From Isoetes taiwanensis (lineage: Eukaryota > Streptophyta > Lycopodiopsida > Isoetales > Isoetaceae), in assembly GCA_021234155.1 (NCBI GenBank), contig JAJEKV010000002.1, forward strand, positions 28,820,262-28,884,261: a stretch of 64,000 nucleotides of DNA, read 5' to 3'. A program made the position numbers and the translations under genes. Shown here in pieces: positions 11,499 to 51,958 of this stretch; the stretch's first letter is position 1; every line of letters starts with the position of its first letter. A model generated the notes under the pieces. The model saw only the letters and a program-made list of their open reading frames with translations, did no database searches and was not told the DNA's origin.

Positions 11499-11540
11499 TT
11501 ACTTCAAGCCTCGGTATTTCCTTCAATTTCCTTCAATTTA

Positions 11541-11831
11541 CATTTATACCGTCCTAGGCCTCGGTATAAATTTATACCGTCCTCCGCCTCGGTATAAATT
11601 TATACCGCCCTAGGTCTTGGTATAAATTTATACCGTCCTCTGCCGCGGTATAAATTTATACCGTCCCGGGCCATGGTATAAATTTATACCGTCCTGGGCC
11701 TCTGTATAAATAATACCGTCCTAGACCTCGGTATAAATTTATATCGTTCTAGGCCTCAGTATAAATTTATACCGTCCTCTGCCGCGTGTATAAATTTATA
11801 CTATCCTAGGCCGCGGTATAAATTTATATCG
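11541..11831. repeat. Array of ten 18-bp palindromes, 28-bp period
   Basis: Copies of CGGTATAAATTTATACCG start at 11562, 11590, 11618, 11646, 11674, 11702, 11729, 11757, 11786 and 11814, preceded by a half copy at 11541. The period is 28 bp in nearly every step. The 10-bp spacers are similar to one another and often palindromic themselves (CCTAGG, CCGCGG, CCCGGG, CCATGG). Each palindrome places TATAAA on both strands between CGG and CCG. The array fills the gap between the start of the methyltransferase frame (-) and the first ATG of the next gene (+, 11948). Confidence 0.9.
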
Positions 11832-37275: not shown

Positions 37276-38445
37276 TCAGCAGACAAAAGTGCTTGAATCT
37301 GAGAGAAATGAATCTGAGAAATGGGAAATAAATATGGAGCCAAATTGTGAGACAAATTTTATGGAAAGTACGACAGGAAGAGAAGAGAATGAGAATATTT
37401 TAAGTGTGGTTTTAAGACAATTTCTGAATGCAGACATACGATCAGCAACTGATAACCTAGTATATAGTACATCTAAGTTGTTAAGCATGTACTATATGGC
37501 CTGATCAAACCAGATCATGTTATCATCACATTCTTTGGATTGTTTACCCTTTGCCCTGTTATCACAAATGCATTTGAAGTAAGGGCACATAGTATGCCAG
37601 ATATGCTTCAAGTAAAAGTCATCCCTTGTGATATTAGAATATGCCATGTGGTCTTTCTGACATAATATCATCAGATCACTTTTATTACATTTTTTATCAA
37701 AGAACTTGGTATCTACAACAAGCCTGACCTTTGTCCTTTTCATTCTTATCATCCAAAAAGCAGCGGCCAATTTTTAGTTTTCCAAATGGCCTGGTTGCAC
37801 AACAGCCCATGGTTTTCTACCAGTCTATCAGGTATAATAGGAAATCTTAAGCAATTTCTCAATGCAAATTTGAAGTCGACCACGTTTTTACTTTTACTCT
37901 TGTTTGTAGTAGGTTGTAGGACTGCGTTATCTGCCTCAGTGAGCAAATCATCCCCAAATAAGTCATCAGACATATCAGTAGCCATAGTGGAAATCATGGA
38001 TTTGTCTAGCCTTATCTACTCCTCCTCTTTGGACAGCGTATTCTTAATCTCATTAACATTCTCAAGTACAGTGACCCCAAGAATGAATTCACTGGCAAGC
38101 TCATCCTCAGCTTTAGTCCAGTTATAGACCTTTTGTGGTAGGCTATCATATAAGCTATATAAAAATGGGAACACATCCTCTTCTTTATTAGAGCTTTGTT
38201 AATATGTGGCAAAAGCATGAGCCACTCACTAAAGCCAAGATGTGTAACAGCTGAGATCTGTTCAGGAGTTCTAATAGCTTCTCTTTCTAGAATGATCTCA
38301 TAGAATTTCATATTTTTAATACAACACAGAATAGTCTGTACAACAGTGTTGGGACATTCAATTCTGTTTTTATCAAATCCGATTTCAATAAGTTGATCAT
38401 TCCATGTTGGAGGTATTACATCATATTCGACATCCTCATCTGGAG
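37276..38445 (-). pseudogene. Inverted relic of the Penelope-like ORF1
   Basis: The minus strand gives, in order, CPNTVVQTILCCI (38390-38330), ISAVTHLGFSEWLMLLP, LRNCLRFPIIPDRLVENHG, NQAIWKTKNWPLL, DDFYLKHIWHTMCPYFKC, NMIWFDQAI and MLNNLD. Each aligns in the same order with the (+) ORF1 at 42372-43738: TVQTILACI, SAITHMGMSNFL, FFNCQRFPIMTQREVESHG, KQALWKSKNLGIL, HDFYIKMYQSTIRPFIKC, TIIWLDHAVW and MNNLD. Frames change at least twice. This is an older, strongly diverged copy lying head to head with the (+) element. Confidence 0.75.
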
Positions 38446-39040
38446 CACCCTACATTTAGCATGTGAACCCAAATGTCCATTGTCAAGTTAGTCAATAATC
38501 AGCAAACAAACTCAAATGCAAACATCCAATATATTTCTCAAGTTGCAGCTTGGGATCATATAACTACTCAAACAAATAGAAAATAGGTACAAGACAACAC
38601 CAGATGTCTCCAGTGTGATGAAGTATCTAAGAAAAAATCCCAGCCTGAACTAGCATCACTAGACCAGACATACACTTGTAGGGTCAATCCCTTATGATAT
38701 TATCACCCTGATTCTGTTCCAAGATTTGTATCCTAGATTGATTATCTTTTTATCTATTGGACTCATCCTATCTTTAACATGTTACCATCTGTTTTTAACT
38801 CATAAACATCTTATACCATGTGTCTATCATACAAGTATTCTAGCACTTATCCTCTGCTCCATGAATCAGAGTACGTAGGTCGCTGCCATAATGCTATTTG
38901 TAATGCATTCTAGAATCCATATCTTAACCCGACAGAATTGTGCGGACTACTAAAAATGGAAGGTACATGGAAATTCTGACTTTTAGAATACTTACAGATA
39001 TGGATGATTTGATATCTATTAACATCCATTTATCAGAAAC
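38446..39040. other. Spacer between inverted element remnants
   Basis: AT-rich sequence without a supported gene. It separates the minus-strand ORF1 relic from the plus-strand RT tail. Confidence 0.4.
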
Positions 39041-39480
39041 TTTTTAGGATTGGGGGATGATAATGGGATGGTAATCTACAACCTAAAGCATTTAGCAATA
39101 AAAGATGAAGCTGTTTATTAGGTAAATGATACTACTAGAGGTATTAGGAAGGTGGATTTCCTAAACATGACAATAGAGTCATTGTACCACGTTTGGATTA
39201 TATACTACATATAGGTACGACAAAGGAAGAAGTTACCATTTAAGGTGTCTAAATTGTGCATGCTGGGATTCGCGGTATATTTGATGGCATGCAATGTAAT
39301 TATCTCCCAAATCATGCCATTTCTATATCATGATGATCCCATTAAATGACTTATGATATATTGGATCACGATAGCGGCTTCATAAGTAAAGAGGGTTTGT
39401 TAAGAAGGATATACGGTATGAATTAACAAAGTTTTACGAATGAGGTTTTCGAGGTCTAAGGTGTGATATAAAGATACATT
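39041..39480 (+). pseudogene. 3' end relic of a Penelope-like RT gene
   Basis: The nucleotide sequence at 39155-39190 (GTGGATTTCCTAAACATGAC) aligns with the RT gene at 45970 (GTCAACTTCCTCAACATGAC), which encodes VNFLNMTI. The match continues weakly through the part corresponding to the RDHLPF region, the NVPSxVMPYI region and the end of the thumb at about 39460. It is thus the 3' tail of another element copy, in the same orientation as the intact one and about 6.8 kb upstream of it. It is too damaged to translate. Confidence 0.65.
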
Positions 39481-39593
39481 TTTGAGCTTAGCTAGAACAA
39501 ATAGCTCTTAGATATGGCAGGGGGTCCTTATGTTAATAAGACCCCAACCTTTTGCTATAATCATATGGACTCTCCCACCTTGGGGTAGGAGAT

Positions 39594-42185
39594 AGTGTAT
39601 ATATACATATACATATATCCAAGGTTGATAAAGGGCATATGAGTAAGATGACTACATGAGTATGATTTCTAAATTGCACCTAATTCATGGGTATAGACAC
39701 ATGATGGTAATTTGACAAGAAATGAAGTGCTTAGGTTAACCATATCTTAAATACATGATCCCGAGAGAAAATTAAGATTGGTGAGGGCCTTAGAGATGGA
39801 CCCATATAGGACCCGGGATAAAATGATAAGTTGAATAAGATAGAATGAGTAGGTACGACAAAGGCGGGGATATATCTTTACACAAAACCTTAGCACATAG
39901 GAACAAGTTATTGTGAGTGCGTGGTGAAACCCGGGGAAATAAAGACCAAGGAAGGTAATAACTTTGTGAACCAAATAAGATAAAGTGTTCTAATAAGACA
40001 TGGTTATAAAAAGCAAAGGTAGGTCATGTATGGACATACTAAATAGGAATAGAGAAATATAATGACAATGGGGAAGACGCATTATGGAGTGTACATATTC
40101 TTGGAGATCTATGCAAAAAACAATAAAAGGACCTAATATAGGGTAATGGAATAAGCTGTGACCATGAGGATGGGATTTAGTCAAATATTGTATTTAGTAA
40201 AGGGCAAAGATATGGTTGGTAGAGGCATTATGAATTATCTGAAATCTAAAACCAGGATGGGGACATTTAAGTATATATCAAAGTTTAGGGTTCCAGTTTT
40301 GGGCATTAACAGCAGCCTTGCTGGCCACAGAGAAACACATCACAGTATAGATGATTACTTCAACGGATGCTTACGATATGATATAGTGCGATTGAAAACA
40401 TTTTTAGAGCATGTAGTTTTCCCATGTAGCATGTGGTTTGGCAATAAGATTTAATGTAAGTGAGCTAGAAAGTTTAGCCTATAGAGATGATTATTCACGA
40501 GCAAAAGCGGAAGAGGTTGAGGGAATTTATTCAAGCGGTGAATGCGTTGGGCATTTGGAGATCCATTAGACCTTATAGCGGTATAGTTTGAGATAACATT
40601 GTTTCCGGTAGTGAACTTCTTGGCTGAATCTTCAAGCAGGTTCAAGATCATGAAGAAATACGAAGCCCGAGAGTTCGAGGCAATCTCAAAGCCCACAAAG
40701 CCAGGCATTATCCGAGATGCTAAGAGAAAAAGATTATCAATTCGGGAATGATGGATCACGCCACAAAAAAATGTCTTTGGAAGGAATGGCAAAAGATCTT
40801 TGGGAATCGACGGTATGCAAATAAGAGGGCAATGAGCATGGGTAGAGACTGGTTCGGCATTGAAGCTTATGTAAGCAACCATACATGGAAAAGGCAAAAG
40901 AACATCACGAGCAATGTGAAACAAAGAGTAAACATAGGCTGGAGTTAGAACAAGCTGGAGGGATGATCAAATGCCACTAAATCGAGGTTTCTTTTTGGTT
41001 CTTTAATATGGGAATATATTAAAAAAGGAGTTTTACAATGAATTCTGAGTCCAGGTTGATCTTTTACATTAAATAATGCATTAGGGCATGATTAATTATT
41101 TGTTTGGTATATGATTGGTTTTGGAAGAATAAGAGTATTGCATTTCTTGATGTAAGAGGAGAAGGTATGCGGGTTAAGGTAGGTGACTCACAGGGAATAG
41201 GTAAGTAAGGCATAATCACGGAATATATTTCAATCCATGGGCGCCAAAGCAACAAGGAGGAGTTACGATTTAGGTCTCCAGGATACTCGATTACATAAGC
41301 ATAAAGTTATGGTGGCCATCAAGCGAGGAAGTTAAATCACCTACCTCTAAATGGTTTCTACTTAAGATTGTATAGGTTAAGGGCTAATATGCCATGAAAT
41401 TCCATGGCCTGCTAGCCATATCATTACCCTTCTTAGGCTAAATTCTTGCGGTTTAACTGGCTCGCGGGGTAGCAGGAGGGGCCTCTTTACCCTACTCCTT
41501 ACAGTCAATGGATTGATTTTGCTAGGCAGGCTTCCAAAGATTATGAGGATGGCGATTACACGCAACTATGGGATGTCTTGCATGATTCTCTTATGTTGTA
41601 GTCAAAGATATCATCAATAATGGTGCATAGGTAAGGCTGGGATTGGGGATCCTTACAAGGTCCACGTATTTTAACTCTATTTTTTGAGATGGTTATTCTG
41701 TGAAAGTTAATATGTGATAGAAGTGTTAAGAAATTTGACCCAAGCGGTAACTATAGTTATGATGAAACAATGCTACTTTATCTTTGAATTAAAAGTATTT
41801 CGTTTTTCTCAAGGTGTTATAGATTTGGGAGTTTAATAAGCGAGAATCGAGAGATCGGTTGCTTATCACATGGAGTACTTGATCATAAGGTTACATAATA
41901 CTTGACTTAAAAGCGATGAGAGGAAAGATCAATAGAGTAAAAGACTTAAAGAAGACTATGAATAAAGATAAAATTATGGACGAGAGATGCTTAAATTTTG
42001 TGAGCCGCGTAAACTAAGGGCATGGTATGGAATGCTACATGTAAAAAGAAATTTTGGAAGCATAGTTATAAGGTTGTCCCAATATAAAAGCGGGAGGTGA
42101 TAAGTCTAGTTTCAGCCTTGGTTTGCCATGTAAGTTAAGCTAGATGTCACGGAACGGAATCAACTGAGATTAGGCTTTATATATT
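39594..42185 (+). repeat. Long direct repeat, copy A (pseudo-LTR-like)
   Basis: Matches 46482-49130 over its whole length, at an offset of about 6.9 kb. Anchors: GATTTCTAAATTGCAC (39668; 46559), GTTCTAATAAGACATGGTTA (39987; 46898), TAGATGATTACTTCAACGGA (40347; 47265) and GCTAGATGTCACGGAACGGA (42138; 49090). The copies differ by many small indels. No conserved coding frame runs through it. It begins at a TA-rich stretch. Together with copy B it brackets the ORF1-RT unit. Confidence 0.85.
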
Positions 42186-42371
42186 AGGCTTCGGCTTATT
42201 GGTTAAACCAATAGGGATCTTATGGAACATGACTCCAGCCTAATTACAGTAGTAAGTTTAAGCTTATAGACATAAACTGTTGAACATAATGAATGGTAGC
42301 TGAAAGCATATAGTATGAACCTGATTTGTTTACAGTATCTAATAAACAGTGGCTTTTCCTAGGAAGGATCG

Positions 42372-43738
42372 ATGAACACTATACAACGCAATCTGACATC
42401 TACCAGTAACAATGGCGTAGCTTATCAATACGAATGGATTCCAGAACTCATGGACTATGGTTATGCTCTCATAGGAAGACCAGCACCAAATTATACTGTA
42501 CAGACAATTCTGGCATGCATCATTAGAAGAGAGTTGCATCAGTATATCATCAACATGGAAAATACAGTGACTAACAACGACAATTCAGCAATCACTCACA
42601 TGGGCATGAGCAATTTTCTTACCATGGTATCTAGCTTCGGGAAAGTTGGGTATGATCTTGATTCATGTAAAGGCATCATTGACAACAGATACGCAAGGCT
42701 CCCTCTAGCACAGTTCAATGCCACAGAAAAGGAGGCAGCGAATTTAAAGACATTTGTCAAGGGACTTACTGCACTTGAAAGGGCAAACGGTGTAAAATTT
42801 ACATTCCCTGTTAACCGACGAACAAAAGCAAAGGCACCAGTTACGCAGGTCAAAGTGATTCCCAATGCAGTCTATAACAACTGTTTGTTCAATGTGGAGA
42901 TGTTACCTGATGAATACAAAGCTGCATTTTGTGCAAAGCATGAAAATGACAATGATGGAATCAATAATGACAATACTGAAGATGAGGAGAAGGTACCTAT
43001 CAGCATGTTAAACTTCTTCAATTGCCAAAGGTTTCCTATCATGACACAAAGGGAGGTTGAATCTCATGGCACTCAGTATAAACAAGCACTCTGGAAGAGT
43101 AAGAATCTCGGGATACTGGCACCTATCAGTCTGGAAGCATGGAAGCAATTAGCTAACCTGGATGATAATGATCTAAGAGAGGCCTGCAACGAAGTGGATA
43201 ATTGCATACGAAAGGTTGACAAAGTTGATGTTACACTTCCCTTTGCTGCCAAGTACTTCGGCCTGGAATGCAGCAATAGCAAGACTATATCCATCGGTCA
43301 AAAAGGTCATCAAGCAAGGGTCGATGAGAGAAGACATGATTTCTATATCAAAATGTACCAGAGCACTATACGCCCATTTATCAAATGCACGTAATGGTAA
43401 AATTGCCAAAAGGAAATGGAGATACTTACGATACTATCATCTGGCTGGACCATGCGGTATGGTTTCTAATGAACAATTTGGACAAAAGGCTTGGCGGAAA
43501 CTTGACCTACTATGGTGAGTTTGCCTTTTCGACTCAATACTTTCCTGAACCTCTTAAGGCCGACCATTCGCATTATGTTGGCTACATCGGAGACCTTGAG
43601 GATATTATGGTCAAAATGACAATAATGTTTGCTGATAATCCCAACAGTGATCTTAATAAGGAGTTTGGAGGCACTAAATTGACTGATGTGCTGGAAAAAA
43701 CCATCAAGCCAATTAAGTTCTTGATTGCAAAACAGTAG
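42372..43738 (+). pseudogene. Penelope-like element ORF1, unknown family, one frameshift
   Basis: ATG at 42372 opens 340 codons to 43394. The protein then continues in another frame (to 43738) after a single frameshift near 43392. The total is about 455 residues, soluble, with an acidic low-complexity insert (ENDNDGINNDNTEDEE, residues about 197-212). The same protein is conserved in the inverted relic at 37.3-38.4 kb across the whole length, including past the frameshift, so this is one coding unit and the frameshift is secondary. No known domain is visible: no zinc knuckle, GIY-YIG or coiled coil. It precedes the RT gene on the same strand by about 0.5 kb. It is probably an element-encoded accessory protein; its role is unknown. 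Confidence 0.65.
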
Positions 43739-43816
43739 GAGGGAAATATTTATAGCCAAAGTGAACACAACAGAAAAAGACAAAGTGAACCGGACAGCCC
43801 AGACTGCTCGATCATA

Positions 43817-44040
43817 ATGCCACCAAAGTTGTATAAGAGACCAGAGTCGGCAAGCTCCAATGTTGGGGCAAGTTCCAATATTACTGAGATTGGAAACAAC
43901 AGTATCATTGAGATCGATGATACAAATAGTAAGAAGGCTGGATCGGTCCCACAAAAACCACGGCTACTAAAAGTCGCAGTGAGATCCTTCACGACATAGC
44001 TGAAACCGAGATTTTTATTATATAAAGACCCACCGTGGAG
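43817..44040 (+). CDS. Small upstream exon of the RT gene, candidate
   Basis: ATG at 43817 encodes MPPKLYKRPESASSNVGASS, followed by an acidic IIEIDDTNSKK stretch. The open frame ends at a TAG (43997-43999), but a neighbouring frame continues KSRSEILHDIAETEIF close to a strong donor GAG|GTAAGAAA at 44040/44041. A GT-AG intron (44041-44257) would place this ahead of the RT exon. Whether the TAG is decay or an error is not known. Confidence 0.4.
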
Positions 44041-44257
44041 GTAAGAAACTATCTCAGTTACATGTTTACAGTTTGATTAAGTACTATTCTATAATGATTG
44101 ATGAAGGTTTCTGTAATAAGTAGAGCATGTAACAGTAGTAAAGGGAATGCACGGGTTTTTAACAAAAAACAAAAAAAAGAATCATAGTTCCAATGCCTAC
44201 TTAGGCATTACTTTAAAAGAAATGATCTTTTGATCAAACAATATATACGTTTACAGA
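44041..44257 (+). other. Candidate intron in the Penelope-like element
   Basis: A GTAAGAAA donor at 44041 and an acceptor TATATACGTTTACAG ending at 44257. The RT frame has no ATG near its start; the first in-frame codon after a stop is TTG at 44230, so splicing would explain how translation enters it. Introns are known in Penelope-like elements. Confidence 0.5.
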
Positions 44258-46336
44258 TCAAGACCAGAAAGTTGACATTGAAGGCAGATGGGGATTGGGT
44301 ACTAACGCTTATCAAGGATAAAATAAAGAAAAAATATGTACACTTCGGCTTCTTTTCTAAATTTGTCAGCCGAATCAAATTTACTGAGATTTTCAAGCAT
44401 CAGCTGGTCAAACATTTTAAAGAAAAAGGGCTGCAAATTTATGAGACGACAGTATTTGGATGGAAATATAGTATGAATTTGAAGGCTATGTTTTATAAGC
44501 CTAGAATGGTGTTTGCACAAAAGGAACAAATGAGATGCCCATGTGGTAGTCCTACACTACAAAAATTCATAGACAAGAAGGTGGGACATATCAGGACTAC
44601 GGACATAAAGATTGTGCACCAGCCTACTCTTAGAAAATGGTTCAGCTTTGGCCTTAGCCATATACCTGATTCACCATTTACTCTACAGCAGTTCAAAGTG
44701 GAAATTGGCAATACAGCAGATCAATTCTTCAAAGTACATAACTACTCTTTCAACAGAGATGAAGTGGAGGAAGTACGAAAATGTAAAAAAGAAATTCTAT
44801 ATGAAGCAAAGAAAATGGCTAAAAGAGTAATTAGCAGCAATGATTTGCAGAAAACTAAGTTCTGGATTAAAGATGATGAAGTAATAAAGAACATGAGGTG
44901 GCTTAAGGACAATTTCTATATATCAGGAATTGATAAAGCTGCTAACAATCCGGCCTTCATATGTCCGAAGCATATAAGGGATGAAGCCTACAAGAGACTT
45001 GGTAGTTCTGATTTTGAGGAAATTAGCATGAAGCCTGAAAATATAATAGAAATAATCATGAAACAGACTAAGGAAATCTCAGATGACATGTCTTTCTGTA
45101 GCAATGATCTACCTTATCTCCTAGGAATTTATAAAGCACATAAAGGAGAATATCGATGGATCACTAACGCTCATGAAACTATATACTCTAATATTGCATC
45201 TCTAACAGCAGCAGCTCTAAATACAGTACTAGAAATATGGCCTAGGATATGTCACGAACAATGTGCTAAATTCAATATGTTCAGCAAACATAAGATCAAA
45301 GCGTCATGGGTGATAAATTCAATCTACGATTTGGTGTGTAACCTGCCTGGAAAAATTGAGGATCTTTTTGTATGTGATATCACGAAATGTTATGAAAACA
45401 TCCCGCTTGAGGGCAGTGAAGGGATCATATCTGTTATGAACAAAATATGTGATATGGCTTGGTATAGTCAGAAAGTACAGAACCGCAACTATAAACTTTG
45501 GTACTGTTTTAATGAAAACGGAACAGTAGAAGTAAAATGGAAAAATGTGACACCAAAAGGCAATAAGTGGAGTCTGATGGAGCATGGAAAATTTAGTAAG
45601 ATCAATACCTGGCTTCTAAGCAACTGTTTTTTACAAATGGGGGACAGAATTTGGAAACAAGCCAAGGGAATCCCAATGGGCTTCCCATGCAGCCCAGCAT
45701 GGTGTAATCTATATCTAGCCTTTTTTGAACTGAAATTTATTATTGGCTTAGCGAAGGAAGGAAGGATGGATGAAGCATCTACTTTCAAAGGTGCACATAG
45801 ATACATTGATGATCTGATAGGTATAAATTGTCATTATATGAGGAAATATCTTGGGCTGGAAAATGGTGCAGATGTGAACTGCACAATCTATGATCTTAAC
45901 ATTTTGAAAATTAAGGATGAGACTGAGTATTGGCCATGTGAGGAAGGAAATACATACATTGGTAGGAAAGTCAACTTCCTCAACATGACCATTGAGATCT
46001 TGAATAGGTACCATGGCACATATTGTACCTACAGATATGATAAAAGGGATCATTTACCTTTTCTGGAAGCCTTGTGCAAAATGATTTATATCTATAGCTT
46101 ATAATGTAATAATGTCCCAAGTCATGCCTTACATTTATGTACACAGCAACCCATTTAATGCTACAAATGAGTTACACGAGCTGGCCAGAATCTTTACATG
46201 TAAAGGTTTCAAGGATACGGACGTATGGAGAGCAATCAACAAAGTTCTTAGGGAAGGTAGCTTTCCTGGTCTGCAGTACGACATCGGTACTTTAGTTCAC
46301 GAACTCAAAAGTTACAGGTATGTACTTTGTGATTGA
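44258..46336 (+). CDS. Penelope-like reverse transcriptase, nearly intact
   Basis: A single frame of about 615 codons to 46104. Counting from 44230, residues include CPCGSP (103-108), GHIRTTDIKIV (119-129), DKAANNPAF (235-243), YKAHKGEYRWITN (301-313), motif A DITKCYENIP (383-392), motif B QAKGIPMGFPCSPAWCNL (477-494), motif C RYIDD (524-528), VNFLNMTI (581-588) and RYDKRDHLPF (602-611). After a frameshift near 46104-46112 the thumb continues to 46336 (LHELARIFTCKGFKDTDVW). The motif chain is that of Penelope-like RTs of the type common in cnidarians, molluscs and fish. No GIY-YIG endonuclease is seen on either side, so an endonuclease-lacking type is likely. All catalytic Asp residues are present. 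Both strands around it are repeats of the element. Confidence 0.8.
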
Positions 46337-46481
46337 AGTTAGGAAATTAATTAGGGGATATAGTAAGAATTGGTAAAACATAGGGTGTGAGGTGGGTCCC
46401 TAAGTATATAGGGATCCACTCGCATCCCTATATACGCAAAACTGGGACTCTACCTCACTCCCCGGAGGAGGTAGGAAAAAA

Positions 46482-49130
46482 TATATCTATATATATATAC
46501 ATATACATATATATCCAAAAGGTTGATAGGGCATATGGTAGATGACTACACTTAGTATGATTTCTAAATTGCACTGATTCATGGAGGTACATTATAGACA
46601 CATGATGGTAATTTGACAAGAAATGAAGTGCTTAAGGGTCCTTCCTTATCTTAAATACATGATGTTGGAAAATTAGGGTGAAACGAGGCCTTAGGGGTGA
46701 GACCATATAGGACCAGGATAAAATGATAGTAAGTTGAATAAAAGAATTAGAATGATGGTGACAAAGTAGGGATATATCTCACAAAAACCTTAGCATAGGG
46801 GAACAAGTTATTTTAGTAGTGCATTAATTGGGGAAACCGGGGAAACCAAGACCAAGGAAGGTGTAATAACTTGTAGTTTCAAAATAAGATAAAAAGTGTT
46901 CTAATAAGACATGGTTATAAAAAGACAAAGGTAAGGTCATATTATGGACATACTAAATAGAGAGAGACCAAATAGCAGCAATGGGCAGAAGACAAGTATG
47001 GGTGTACACATATTCTTGGAGATCTAGCAAAAAGCAATAAAAAGGACCTAATATAGGGTAATGGAATAAGCTGACAGGATAGGATTTAGTCAAATATTGT
47101 ATTTAGTAGGCAAGGAATATGGTTGGTAGAGAGGCACATTATGAGTATCTGAGGAATCTAAAAAACTTAAGGATCGGGACATTTTAAGTATTATATCAAA
47201 GTTTAGGGTTCAGTTTTGGAGGCGTGGCAGCAGCGCCCTTGTACAAAAGGCTTTTATCACGAGCATAGATGATTACTTCAACGGATGCTTAGAGTAGCGA
47301 TTTGATATGAATGCGTTGAAAACATTTTGAAGCATGTAGTTTTCCGCTTATAGCATGGTTTGGCAATAAGATTTAATGTAAGAGTAGAGCTGAAAGTTTA
47401 GCCTATATAAGAGATGATTATTCGAGCAAGCGGAAGAGGAGTTTGAGAATTTATTCAAGCTGATGAATGGATTGAGCATTTAGGAGATCATTGAACCTTA
47501 TAAAGCGAGGGCATAGTTTGGATAGCATTGTTTCTAGTAGTGAACTTGCACGAATCTTAAGCAGTTCAAGATCATGACCGGGCCGGAAGGTTGAGGAGCA
47601 ATCCTCAAACCCACAAAGCCAAAGGCATTATCCCGGAATGCTAAGAGAAAAAGGTGTCACGAATTTAGGGGCTGATGGATCACTTAAAAATACGTCTTTG
47701 GAAGGAATGGCAAAGATCTTTGGAATCGACATTTATACAAATAAGAGGGGCAATAGGCATGGGTAGAGACACGGATTCCAGCATTGGAAGCTTATTATGG
47801 CAACCATACATGGAAAAGGGGCAAAGAACATCACGAGCAATCTGTGAAACAGAATCAACATAGGCTGGAGTTGAAGACAACAGTGGAGAGTTAGTCGATA
47901 CCACTAAATCAGGTTTCTTTTGGTTCTTTTAATATGAGAATATATTAAAAAAGGGGTTTACAATGATTCTGAGAATCGGGTTAAATCTTGTTAAATAATG
48001 CATTAGAGGGCATGATTAATTATTTGTTTAATTATATATGATTGGTTTTGGAAGGGCCAGTATTGCATTTCGCGATGTAAGAGGGGAGAGGTATGCGAGG
48101 GTTAAGGTAGGTGACTCCACGGAATATGAGTAGTAGACATAATCTTGGAATATATTTCAATCATGGGCCTTAACAACAAAGGAGGAATTCACGATTTGAT
48201 TATCCGGTCTCCGGTACATAGCGGCACAAAAGTTATGAAGTAATATCAAAGCGAGGAAGTTAAAATCTCACCCTACCTCTAAATGATTTCACCATAAGAT
48301 TGTATAGGTTAAAAGGGCTAATGTACCATGAGGGGTGCAAAGCTTACGCAGCCATTTCTGCATTACCCTTCTTAGGCTAATTGCTGATTTGTTTGAGTAC
48401 TGCAGTGCCAAGGAATTTCTTTTACCTACTCCTTTTTAGTCAATGGATTGATTTTTGCTAGGTAGTATGAGCTTCAAAGATTATGAGATAGCGTTACACA
48501 ACTATGGGATGTCTTGCATGATTACACTCTTATAGGCTGTAGTCAAAGATATCATCAATAATAGTTATAGTAAAGGCTGCGGATTGAGATCATACGAGGA
48601 GTCCGTATTTTAACTCTATTTTTGAGATGGTTGTTCTTGTGAGAAAGTTAATATGTGATAGAAGTGTAAAATTTCGACTTAAAGCGTGTAACTTATAGTT
48701 ATGATGAAACAATGCTACTTTATCTTTGAATTAAAAGAGTATTTCTCGTTTTTCTCAAAGGTATTTATAGATTTGGGAGTTTAATAGCGAGAATCCCGAA
48801 GTCGAGTTACTTATATATCGTAGATGCTTGATCATAAAAAAGGGTTATATAATACTTATTAAAACTTGTTAAGAGGAAAAGATCAATAGGTAAAGACTTA
48901 AGAAGACTATGAATAAAAGGGAATAAAAAATTATGAGACAAGATGCTTAAATTTGTAGGCACGTAAATAGGGGCACATGGTATGGAATACTACATGTAAA
49001 GAATTTTGGAGGCTGATTTATAAGAGTTGTCCCAGCCCAATATAAAGCTGGGGCTGATAAAGTCTAGTTTACATGGTTTGCCATGAATTGGCTAGATGTC
49101 ACGGAACGGATCAGCAGTCACAAGGCTTTT
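46482..49130 (+). repeat. Long direct repeat, copy B (pseudo-LTR-like)
   Basis: Downstream copy of 39594-42185, starting in a TA-rich stretch and ending at a long (TA)n tract. It follows the RT stop by about 150 bp. Short insertions and deletions every 10-40 bases distinguish it from copy A, while base substitutions are fewer. A small plus-strand frame at 47675-47863 corresponds to 40748-40948 in copy A (WKEWQ...TWKRQK), but both are disrupted. Confidence 0.85.
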
Positions 49131-49154
49131 TATATATATATATATATATATATA

Positions 49155-49246
<92 letters not shown>

Positions 49247-49248: not shown

Positions 49249-51958
49249 TCATACCCTTTGGGATCCTAATCTAGCCTAAACCTTCTGCTCCACATGACCA
49301 CTCATTCGAGAGCAGGGGGTGTTCTGCTTCTTTTCTGAAGCCTACAAGCTCTCTACAACTAAGGTAAGTCTAATGGGGATCAAGTATTTGATTCCAAGGC
49401 AAACTTATCTTTTTTGTCATAGAAAGCCAAAGCATGAAGTTTATATGATAATACCTTTGAATAAGCCATGTATATAGAATATCATGACAGTTAAATTATC
49501 ACCATGGAAATTACTAATGCTAAAGCCGACCAAAATTCGGAGTTATGCATGTAAGTTTGCAATCACCTTCATAAGCATCACATGCCAAAGCGATTAAAAT
49601 CTAAACTTTGTTTTATGGTCCAAGTAGGAAAATGCTCGACTTTCACTTTAAGCCTCCTTCCACAACTATCAAATTCTAGTTCAAAGGGATAACACAATAA
49701 GATGTGAATTTAAACCAAGAAACACAAATGTGCATCTATTACTCTCATTGCATATGTCATTGTGTTCATGCTCAAAATCGAACCAAGAAACACACTTTAT
49801 GGTCGCGGGGACTGTTATATAGAGAAGAGTATTTAAGCACACCAACTTCATGTTCATGCTATAGATCCTAAAGATACTCTTGACCATGCCTATGTTATTT
49901 TTAGATTGCATATAGCAACTATTTCTTTTAACAAGTAAGCCCAAGAAGGCAAATCTTCTAGATTTTGTGTTCCAACTAGATTTTAGATGAATTAAGAACA
50001 ACCAATGTCTTTGCTCATGTATGTAAAAACTAGTTAGACATGATTTCTGAGATTTTTCTCCACGATAAATAATGCGCAGAGAGACCGCAGTCAGATTGCA
50101 ACTTCGAACTTGTACATCCGAGAAGTTTCTTTGCCAATTAACATGGCATCCCGGAAGGTGGAGTCTAGCATGTTGCAGCAAACCCAATGTAAATTAGCCT
50201 TAATCGGGGTAAAGTACAAAGCCACTAAGCGAATTAATGAAGCAAAACTCTGTTTTTATCCGTTTCCTTTTCGTGTTTAAGATCCATCCTCATGAATGAC
50301 TACTTTTCAGCAAATGTCCCGGACTTGAAATGTGCGTAACATCATAAAATGTGCCAATAAAAGGCACATGAAACATTTAACTTAACCTCTTCCGGTCAAG
50401 TTTTTATGGTATATAAAGAAAGGAACTAATAAAATTACCCCGTTGTCAAAGGACTTCACATTTCCACAATAAGATCACGATTCCGATGCTACATATAGGC
50501 ATCTTATCCAGGTGCTTGAGAAATAGATGCGGGCTGCTCTAAATTTTGATGGCATATAACAATCGCGAAAATCAAAATTGCAACAATCAAAGTCATGTAG
50601 GGCTCACGAAAATCACGGGGTTACAATAATAAAATTCAGCAAAGCTCATTTCTTTGTCCGCGAGAGAAGTTGGCGAAAACCTAAAGAGACAACGTTGTTC
50701 AGAAGTAAAATCTACAAAGGAAACTCCCTTTATGTACATATCCCAGCTACTATTCACTTAAAATTGATAAGCTCATTGAAACAAGGCGGACACCTAATAC
50801 GAGCTTAGTCGGTTCTCCTTCATAAAGGATTTGGAGTAATGTTCTAGATAAAAATGCAATAAGAAAATTACCAAAAGCACGATTTAGGAACGCTCCTTAA
50901 AATGATTGGAAACTCGAAGTCCATAGCGGATGCCTTTACATCAGCAAAGAGAGCAATGGCACGTTTGCCAATCTAGATTTCTAATTTTCCGGTTAAAAGC
51001 CCCATCATTTGCTTGAGATTTATTCTTGAATACGGGTATGCTGGAAAAGCTAAATACCTAGAGGTATGAAATTGCTTGAGCTAAAAAAGGTGGATGCCCT
51101 GATAAAGCAATGCGCCATGCATGCTTCAAAAGCGGCCATATAGTGCGAGGAAGATCAGCGGCCTAGCACTCACGGAAGGTACAAAGAGGCGGAGATGGCG
51201 GCTTATGCGGACCAAGGCTAAAAACCTTTTTCAATCTACGAGGATATTCATTGGCGACTTCATTGGCGGCCTTTTTCTGTCTCAAGAATATCAATTACCA
51301 ATTATTTTTGTGGACACATCGACCAAAATAACCACTAATATAATAATTTTGACTTAAGCTTTTTCAAAGAAGCGTCCACAAGGACCCATCCATGGCATGG
51401 CTTTTGTAAAACAATAAAGGTAGTCCTGCTGCAACGTGAATGGTAAAGGTACTTTATGGAAAGGAGGCTTCCTTAAGAACTTAGCAAATTTGCATCTTGC
51501 GTACTAGAAAGTGCATCTTTTTTAAAAGTAAAAGCTAGATAGAACCTTATTTAAAGAAATCGTCTTGCATAGTGAACATTCAATAAGCCAAATAGAGCTA
51601 TCGACTTGCTTGAAATGTCTCTTTATTTCATGTTGGACACAACAATTTGGCGAAGCAAAAGAAGAATGCTATAGCAATATAAAATAAGCACATACCTCAA
51701 AAATGAAATTGTTTACGGAAATGATTGTGTGCCTTTTGCAAAATGAAAGCCATCCAAACCTAGTATAATAAAAGATGTGTCCAAGTGCCCTTTTATTTTA
51801 GGCAATCTAGAAAGAGCAGATGTCACAAGTTAACTAGCATGGATTCTTGGTGCCATTAATGCTATGTCATCACGCCCTCAAAATAGCAAAATTAGAGCTA
51901 GCAAAATGGTCCCATTTTCTGAGCTAAGTTGATCAGATCCAACCAATAAGCAACCTTG
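49249..51958. other. Unrecognised region
   Basis: The longest frame (49681-50187, -, 168 codons, Ser/Leu/Cys-rich) shows no domain I can name; a faint resemblance to copia integrase or RT flanks was not convincing. Frames at 50578-50808 and 51121-51357 (+) are likewise unassigned. The region lies between two (TA)n tracts. Confidence 0.4.

Follow-up and report, generated by a model that had tools for sequence, protein, structure and literature searches.

A decayed Penelope-like element with ORF1 and two putative introns in the lycophyte Isoetes taiwanensis, and its possible link to TA microsatellites

How a retroelement without an endonuclease of its own enters chromosomes is the question raised by a Penelope-like element (PLE) lying at about 39.6-49.1 kb of a 64-kb stretch of the Isoetes taiwanensis genome (the window). 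An initial annotation made from the letters alone had noticed its reverse transcriptase (RT) gene, the lack of a visible nuclease domain, an upstream open reading frame (ORF1) and a likely intron in a plant-type genome, which is indeed that of a lycophyte. Here we compare this locus with its relatives in the same genome. That it belongs to the PLEs, with a real ORF1 and introns, is close to certain; the wider explanation, in which it is a decayed member of an endonuclease-deficient family that is abundant and under selection in this lycophyte and that enters the genome as proposed below, is evenly balanced. PLEs without an endonuclease and with two ORFs have already been described (PMC6431247; literature statements here and below are taken from excerpts of the cited papers), and it is the choice of site and the exon plan that would be new if confirmed.

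The element and its family

The RT reading frame (44188-46104, 638 amino acids from stop to stop) contains DITKCYENIP, GIPMGFPCSPAW, RYIDD and DKRDHLPF, motifs which we take to be of the Penelope-like type, and its C-terminus continues one frame over (46085-46336). Together with the partial-tandem anatomy described below, these motifs uphold the assignment to Penelope-type RTs. In Pfam the window RT gives a weak RVT_1 match under the cut-off (E 9.7e-5) and three intact RTs from other copies give RVT_1 alone, while a PDB search with the RT returned no match to any RT. The GIY-YIG nuclease was detected neither by Pfam in the window RT and the three intact RTs, nor as a string on the plus strand downstream of the RT in seven loci scanned, in agreement with the initial annotation; a GIY-YIG domain in a hidden 3' exon was rejected on the same two results.

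The element belongs to a large family. Of 4428 RT candidates in the Isoetes genome, 71 were scored as matches; apart from self they are 50-79% identical, and 58/71 keep a frame of 690 amino acids or more open. Of 2912 ORF1 candidates, 119 were scored as matches (33-87% identical apart from self, many with open frames of 530-550 amino acids), both match counts being lower bounds. Thirty RT loci, including that of the window, were fetched for comparison (cited by handles such as L026). ORF1 adjoins the RT upstream in 29 of the 30, as in endonuclease-deficient PLEs, and its median dN/dS is 0.084 (20 usable pairs, 25 exons), indicating purifying selection, as does that of the RT (0.10; 19 usable of 351 pairs among 27 intact exons, three of the 30 having been dropped for internal stops). 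This constant position and low dN/dS identify ORF1 as a conserved functional part of the element, as had been supposed. In the window it is read as 42363-43394, a frameshift into 43340-43738, an in-frame TAG and a conserved tail that runs to about 43996. For ORF1 as for the exon described below, Pfam and PDB leads stayed at chance level. The ORF1 C-terminal tail (e.g. in L019 and L020) has a conserved SEPDSP..SIIMPP stretch and an acidic IIEIED/VIDLDD stretch, the latter resembling a SUMO-interacting motif. Fusion of ORF1 to the RT by frameshifting at the ORF1 stop was rejected because the distance from stop to junction, read by eye, is not constant modulo 3.

ORF1 and RT are separated by a predicted intron, which the initial annotation had proposed and the comparison of copies supports. 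A phase-0 acceptor stands at the RT exon start in 29/30 copies by script and in L033 by eye, and a GT donor follows the ORF1 stop after 4-15 nt in the other copies read and after 41 nt in the window (24/30 loci had the anchor used for this reading). A second, shorter intron is predicted at the RT exon end, which reads AG|GTAY (the bar marks the junction) in 27/30 copies, with an arginine codon that is AGG in 25/25 copies listed; its acceptor, TAG|G, lies about 60-150 nt past the donor and is soon followed by a stop codon (by eye). Both introns appear real by this comparison, and retention of introns in genomic copies is a known PLE feature. Intron 1 also contains a conserved GGG(A/T)TGCACGGG and an AATGCC..GGCATT hairpin (about 44190-44212 in the window).

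The extent first assigned, 42372-46336, proved too narrow, as the element is flanked by pseudo-long terminal repeats (pLTRs). In order, the unit comprises a pLTR (2.6 kb), the ORF1 and RT exons, each followed by a predicted intron, a structured RNA and a second pLTR, with a repeat unit of about 6.9-7.1 kb. Partial-tandem copies that yield pLTRs, a further PLE feature, are seen in the window, L026, L029 and L035, the last being a tandem repeat with a period of 7.05 kb. The window copy is decayed, with two frameshifts, one TAG and pLTRs just 78% alike, whereas the two pLTRs are 98.2% identical in L026 and 98.5% in L029, and these two loci, which lie on different contigs, match at 98% across 9.6 kb of pLTR, internal part and pLTR. 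We file the element as a putative endonuclease-deficient PLE variant on the basis of its motifs, pLTRs and introns. Viral, phage and prokaryotic collections yielded no close relative, and no outside PLE sequence was found in viral or prokaryotic contigs.

TA microsatellites at the ends

Outer 3' ends were located by a rule that calls for a conserved pLTR motif and, directly after it, three or more TA units, and that found them in 19 of 26 loci (the window, L011, L013, L014, L015, L017, L018, L020, L022, L024, L025, L026, L028, L029, L030, L031, L033, L036 and L039); on the 3' side of L012, L019 and L035 the array continues into the ORF1 of the next tandem copy. Seventeen of the located ends abut at least six perfect TA units. 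In the 18 loci besides the window, the longest perfect runs starting no more than 35 nt from the end measure 96, 73, 62, 58, 57, 52, 42, 39, 38, 25, 22, 19, 10, 10, 7, 6, 5 and 5 units. Inner copies of the same outer-end sequence have exactly three TA units in all six cases read (the window, L026, L029, L012, L019 and L035). The TA flanks are well above background: the window holds six tracts of at least six TA units, three falling within the element or at its end, and no such tract occurs in 37.9 kb of L001-L009 (eight of these being other retroelement loci). This contrast between outer and inner ends points to (TA)n microsatellites as the insertion target, a conclusion that we regard as probable, with a confidence slightly lowered because the locating rule itself demands three TA units.

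In agreement with this picture, both ends of L026 and of L029 sit in TA runs. The position of the outer end is constant, at a TATATAT 0.2-0.3 kb upstream of ORF1, and the 3' structured RNA is followed by another TA tract, at which L021 appears to end (by eye). The same host repeats also stand at the TA edge of diverged copies, as judged by eye (L011/L014, L018/L020, L025/L033, and the 3' side of L026 with the 5' side of L029).

Association with telomeres, which the initial annotation had named, besides other entry routes, as usual for such elements, was not seen. The repeat (TTTAGGG)2 is absent from the 30 loci and from five downstream regions, and three telomere-like matches with 1-2 mismatches in the window all lie away from the element (0.71 expected; 5/100 shuffles have as many). 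Ends joined to or located at telomeres, as in Athena, Coprina and Terminons, were not observed, and positions along scaffolds do not differ from uniform (Kolmogorov-Smirnov p 0.32, for 26 loci on larger scaffolds with 4/30 left out, scaffold ends not being proven telomeres). The evidence points to TA microsatellites instead.

Some further arrangements were observed at the TA runs. The host sequence after the run begins with CAAG in 5/19 outer ends (L013, L015, L017, L026 and L028), perhaps because TA runs are used by a further repeat family as well. L026 stands head to head with an inverted PLE of another subfamily (L045 877-979, minus strand, and the L026 left flank), the two sharing one TA run; the pLTR start of this neighbour resembles that of L033 (by eye), and PLEs apparently insert next to the TA ends of other PLEs.

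A pLTR exon and two structured RNAs

In five copies read further, a stretch of 108-109 codons lies about 1.1-1.5 kb past the RT and, because the copies are partial tandems, also about 1.2-1.6 kb upstream of ORF1. It follows the pattern M-(T/P)-R-x-EG..PTKA(D/E)I..LKE(K/R)GI..PLNQ and ends in AA(T/C)CAG|GT at phase 0, with the frame running on beyond that point. A search for AA(T/C)CAGGT gave seven exons with this in-frame end, of which 6/7 aligned have M-x-R-x-EG...PTKA, so that part of the set was found through the ending itself. L026 has the exon in both pLTRs, and L029 has it in frame in the 3' pLTR, its 5' copy opening out of frame. The dN/dS values range from 0.10 to 0.31 (10/15 pairs computable, with high dS). 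Since phase 0 holds on all sides, the stretch is likely a first exon, and its splicing to ORF1 is quite probable on these sequence grounds. Four of the five full ORF1 frames start with E directly at the acceptor, and the fifth (L070) has EG after an open intron stretch. By eye, the exon may have an SAP/HeH-like fold.

Two candidate structured RNAs are encoded by the element. R2 directly follows intron 2 in 30/30 copies, and its outer stem covaries in an alignment of 28 rows (2/30 dropped as near-duplicates), with 95.1% of cells paired and 20 double-changed cells, neither figure being reached in 500 shuffles; with the partner slid, pairing falls to 66% or less. RNAalifold chose this fold with a long outer stem, for which a simple hairpin was dropped; folds of single sequences are split between the two. 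R1 is found within the pLTR, after the exon and before ORF1, and covaries in six rows (96.1% paired, 9 double-changed cells, 0/500 shuffles; further pair types, 30/500 shuffles); its model also detects it in L026, L029 and two more places outside its own rows. As one arm reads CUUACCUG and the other CUGCAGGUAA, a 5' splice-site sequence is paired within R1. The covariation figures for R1 and R2 come from the same alignments as the folds, which favours them.

Neither RNA matches an Rfam family. Rfam hammerheads, which are not required of all PLEs, were absent from the window, the 20/30 copies scanned and five downstream regions; other known ribozymes were absent at Rfam gathering scores, and the weaker matches (up to E 10 and E 5) are not ribozymes. 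A scan of 36-51 kb for CTGANGA gave seven sites; at two of them, within ORF1 and at 37674 on the minus strand, a GAAA is in range, which makes them matches at the level of the motif. A tRNA-like origin of R1 was rejected after a negative ARAGORN search.

The features of the window are collected in Table 1. Upstream of the element lie remains of a 5'-truncated tandem copy, in which the RT C-terminus leaves a trace (55% over 20 residues, E 0.003, tblastn), and an older ORF1 remnant. The initial annotation was right to recognise a second, diverged ORF1, which it had placed at 37.3-38.4 kb; it runs on the minus strand from 38404 to 37471. To the right of the element, a decayed pLTR hairpin on the minus strand (50164-50266; 29.3 bits, E 0.0006) suggests another old inverted PLE copy. 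Farther away, 11511-11817 is an array of a 28-bp tandem repeat (TAAATTTATACCGTCCTNNGCCNCGGTA-like).

Table 1. Features of the element and of related remnants, in window coordinates (putative where so worded; the bar in sequences marks a splice junction).
Feature	Position	Strand	Basis and remarks
Older inverted ORF1 remnant of a related copy	37471..38404	-	three colinear pieces, E 1.6e-22; short fourth piece, E 0.005
RT remnant before the RNA of the next line	39029-39340		tblastn, 42% to RT, E 9.6e-6
Decayed R2-type 3' structured RNA of upstream, 5'-truncated tandem copy	39508..39596	+	cmsearch 24.5 bits, E 0.0072
5' pLTR (terminal direct repeat, 5' copy)	39598..42184	+	78% identical to 46492-49135 over 2.6 kb
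Decayed first exon in 5' pLTR, putatively SAP-like	40650..40986	+	degenerate donor at end; by eye against intact exons
Decayed pLTR hairpin (R1 type)	41376..41465	+	cmsearch 21.2 bits, E 0.037, weak
ORF1 exon	42363..44040	+	acceptor CCTAG|GAAGG, phase 0; frameshift near 43.39 kb; TAG 43736-43738; stop near 43997
Predicted intron 1	44041..44256	+	donor GTAAG, acceptor TTTACAG; AATGCC..GGCATT hairpin; compared across copies
RT exon	44257..46317	+	frameshift near 46.09 kb; frames, own-genome search, copy comparison
Predicted intron 2, 66 nt	46318..46383	+	donor AG|GTATGT, acceptor TAG|G; stop codon just after
3' structured RNA R2, then TA-rich tract	46384..46475	+	cmsearch 99.7 bits, window copy among the 28 model sequences; covariation
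3' pLTR	46492..49135	+	with decayed, putatively SAP-like exon 47574-47912; limits by eye
(TA)n microsatellite at outer 3' end of element	49131..49246	.	24- and 88-bp tracts

Possible routes of entry and related systems

In the mechanism that we propose, the pLTR exon would give a common start codon to both proteins, being spliced either to ORF1 or to the RT with ORF1 skipped as a cassette exon. Alternative splicing would therefore set the ORF1:RT ratio. This cassette-exon model, drawn from the exon phases, falls a little short of an even chance. In BARE-type long terminal repeat (LTR) retrotransposons, which are of a different class, Gag is made from a spliced RNA and splicing sets the ratio of structural protein to polymerase. 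ORF1, perhaps with the SAP-like exon as a DNA-binding head, would coat the RNA, and the RT, having no nuclease, would rely on 3' ends already present where TA microsatellites, which are break-prone sequences, have broken. UA-rich sites in the RNA (after R2, and the fixed UAUAUAU near the pLTR-ORF1 junction) would anneal to the TA strand, priming cDNA synthesis; such pairing with broken (TA)n would be the simplest route for a nuclease-free enzyme. The logic would be that of telomere-attached PLEs, in which C-rich repeats at the RNA 3' end pair with G-rich overhangs (PMC12477314, PMC6431247), with TA repeats replacing telomere repeats. In full, an endonuclease-free lycophyte PLE lineage would have swapped chromosome ends for TA microsatellites, the R2 fold and UA repeats priming in telomerase fashion and the pLTR exon being alternatively spliced to set dosage, a proposal that we hold tentatively and at clearly less than even strength.

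Several observations weigh against this proposal. Two of the 19 located ends abut five TA units only, no outer 3' end was located in L027, L034, L037 and L038, and an end without TA would have fallen among these four, since the locating rule needs three units. TA tracts can lengthen by slippage: the one after R2 is long inside L026 and short in L029. The right flank of L029 is a high-copy repeat (42 matches listed, 2969 candidates), and two other copies of it that were read have poly-T there and no TA tract; this locus thus yields no clean empty site, and the flank is possibly a later insertion. On scaffolds, 5/26 loci lie within 5% of an end against 1.3 expected. No SAP/HeH match to the pLTR exon was obtained in Pfam up to E 5, the PDB profile search returned nothing relevant, and early methionines in the RT exons (within the first 12 residues in 20/30, absent in 10/30) and in some ORF1 exons (window residue 4, L042 residue 7) mean that neither protein need use the pLTR exon. 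As a side observation, the poly-T with which those repeat copies begin is what one would expect of a retroposon tail.

The TA flanks might instead be a product of insertion, a telomere-type, Athena/Coprina-like PLE having entered at any break and expanded its own short TA end. The element does have TA tracts of its own, after R2 and as TATATAT at the pLTR end, and the inner tract of L026 is expanded; yet inner ends keep three units in 6/6 cases against an outer median near 38, both 5' ends read lie in (TA)n, the same TA-bearing host repeats flank diverged copies (by eye), and the lack of (TTTAGGG)2 in the 30 loci speaks against a telomere type, so that we consider this rather unlikely. Less likely again, and improbable in our view, is an endonuclease supplied in trans by a GIY-YIG PLE or other element of the genome with a preference for AT-rich DNA: a canonical PLE protein does cut DNA rich in AT, and it initiates reverse transcription at an internal site close to the pLTR-ORF junction (PMC11167929), but the excerpt of PMC3846280 reports no sign of cross-mobilisation in a rotifer.

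The exon plan has its own competitor, in which the pLTR exon forms an ORF by itself (ORF3 or ORF0), expressed from a separate mRNA, while ORF1 and the RT start internally, at a non-AUG codon or by reinitiation. The early methionines just listed would fit it, as would an in-frame ATG just before the splice junction in L011. We nevertheless think it doubtful, because the exon ends in AA(T/C)CAG|GT with the frame running past, no early methionine is common to the five full ORF1 exons, and all three exons match at phase 0. That these are domesticated host genes, as long open frames under purifying selection could suggest, is hardly credible given the many dispersed copies, the pLTRs, the tandem partial copies and the two 98%-alike copies on different contigs that stop at (TA)n.

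Athena and Coprina are endonuclease-deficient PLEs associated with telomeres. Elements of this kind, which occur in Selaginella moellendorffii, in fungi and in bdelloid rotifers (Gladyshev and Arkhipova 2007, as cited by PMC12477314 and PMC6431247), share with the Isoetes family the missing endonuclease, two ORFs of which ORF1 is upstream, and the tandem arrays, and the telomere-associated PLEs of Selaginella also have a lycophyte host (PMC12477314). In contrast to Athena/Coprina-type PLEs, the Isoetes copies have no telomere repeats and no Rfam hammerhead, are spread over scaffolds, have located ends in (TA)n and a long pLTR with a coding exon, and their repeat unit of about 6.9-7.1 kb exceeds the 4-6 kb quoted in PMC6431247. 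Terminons likewise combine an endonuclease-lacking RT, accessory ORFs and head-to-tail copies, and their RNA 3' end is complementary to the target repeat, as may be the case here; their units can exceed 40 kb and carry telomere repeats beside a hammerhead, whereas here (TA)n stands beside another RNA fold (PMC6431247).

In a canonical PLE, cDNA synthesis begins at an internal site close to the pLTR-ORF junction, which is also where genomic insertions end (PMC11167929). The Penelope/Poseidon element PAc of Anolis has the same pLTR-ORF-pLTR partial tandem, and its insertions end near that junction, as do those of the element here, which in PAc fits internal initiation of reverse transcription. 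PAc differs in its GIY-YIG nuclease, single ORF, hammerhead and a start site not homologous to the target (PMC11167929); the presumed start site in Isoetes is TA-rich like the target. A TA microsatellite target in a plant is shared by the MuTAnT Mutator-like elements of Medicago, which are DNA transposons with an unrelated enzyme (PMC4486113). A literature search of limited coverage found no study of Isoetes PLEs and no PLE targeting TA repeats.

How endonuclease-free retroelements enter chromosomes is an open question to which telomere attachment is the usual answer. If the proposal is true, a large conserved family residing in TA microsatellites would represent a second natural entry route besides telomeres and would allow telomerase-like priming to be tested directly at internal repeats. 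The family would further be a case of a PLE that coordinates two proteins through a shared pLTR exon, and its two structured RNAs provide material for binding tests.

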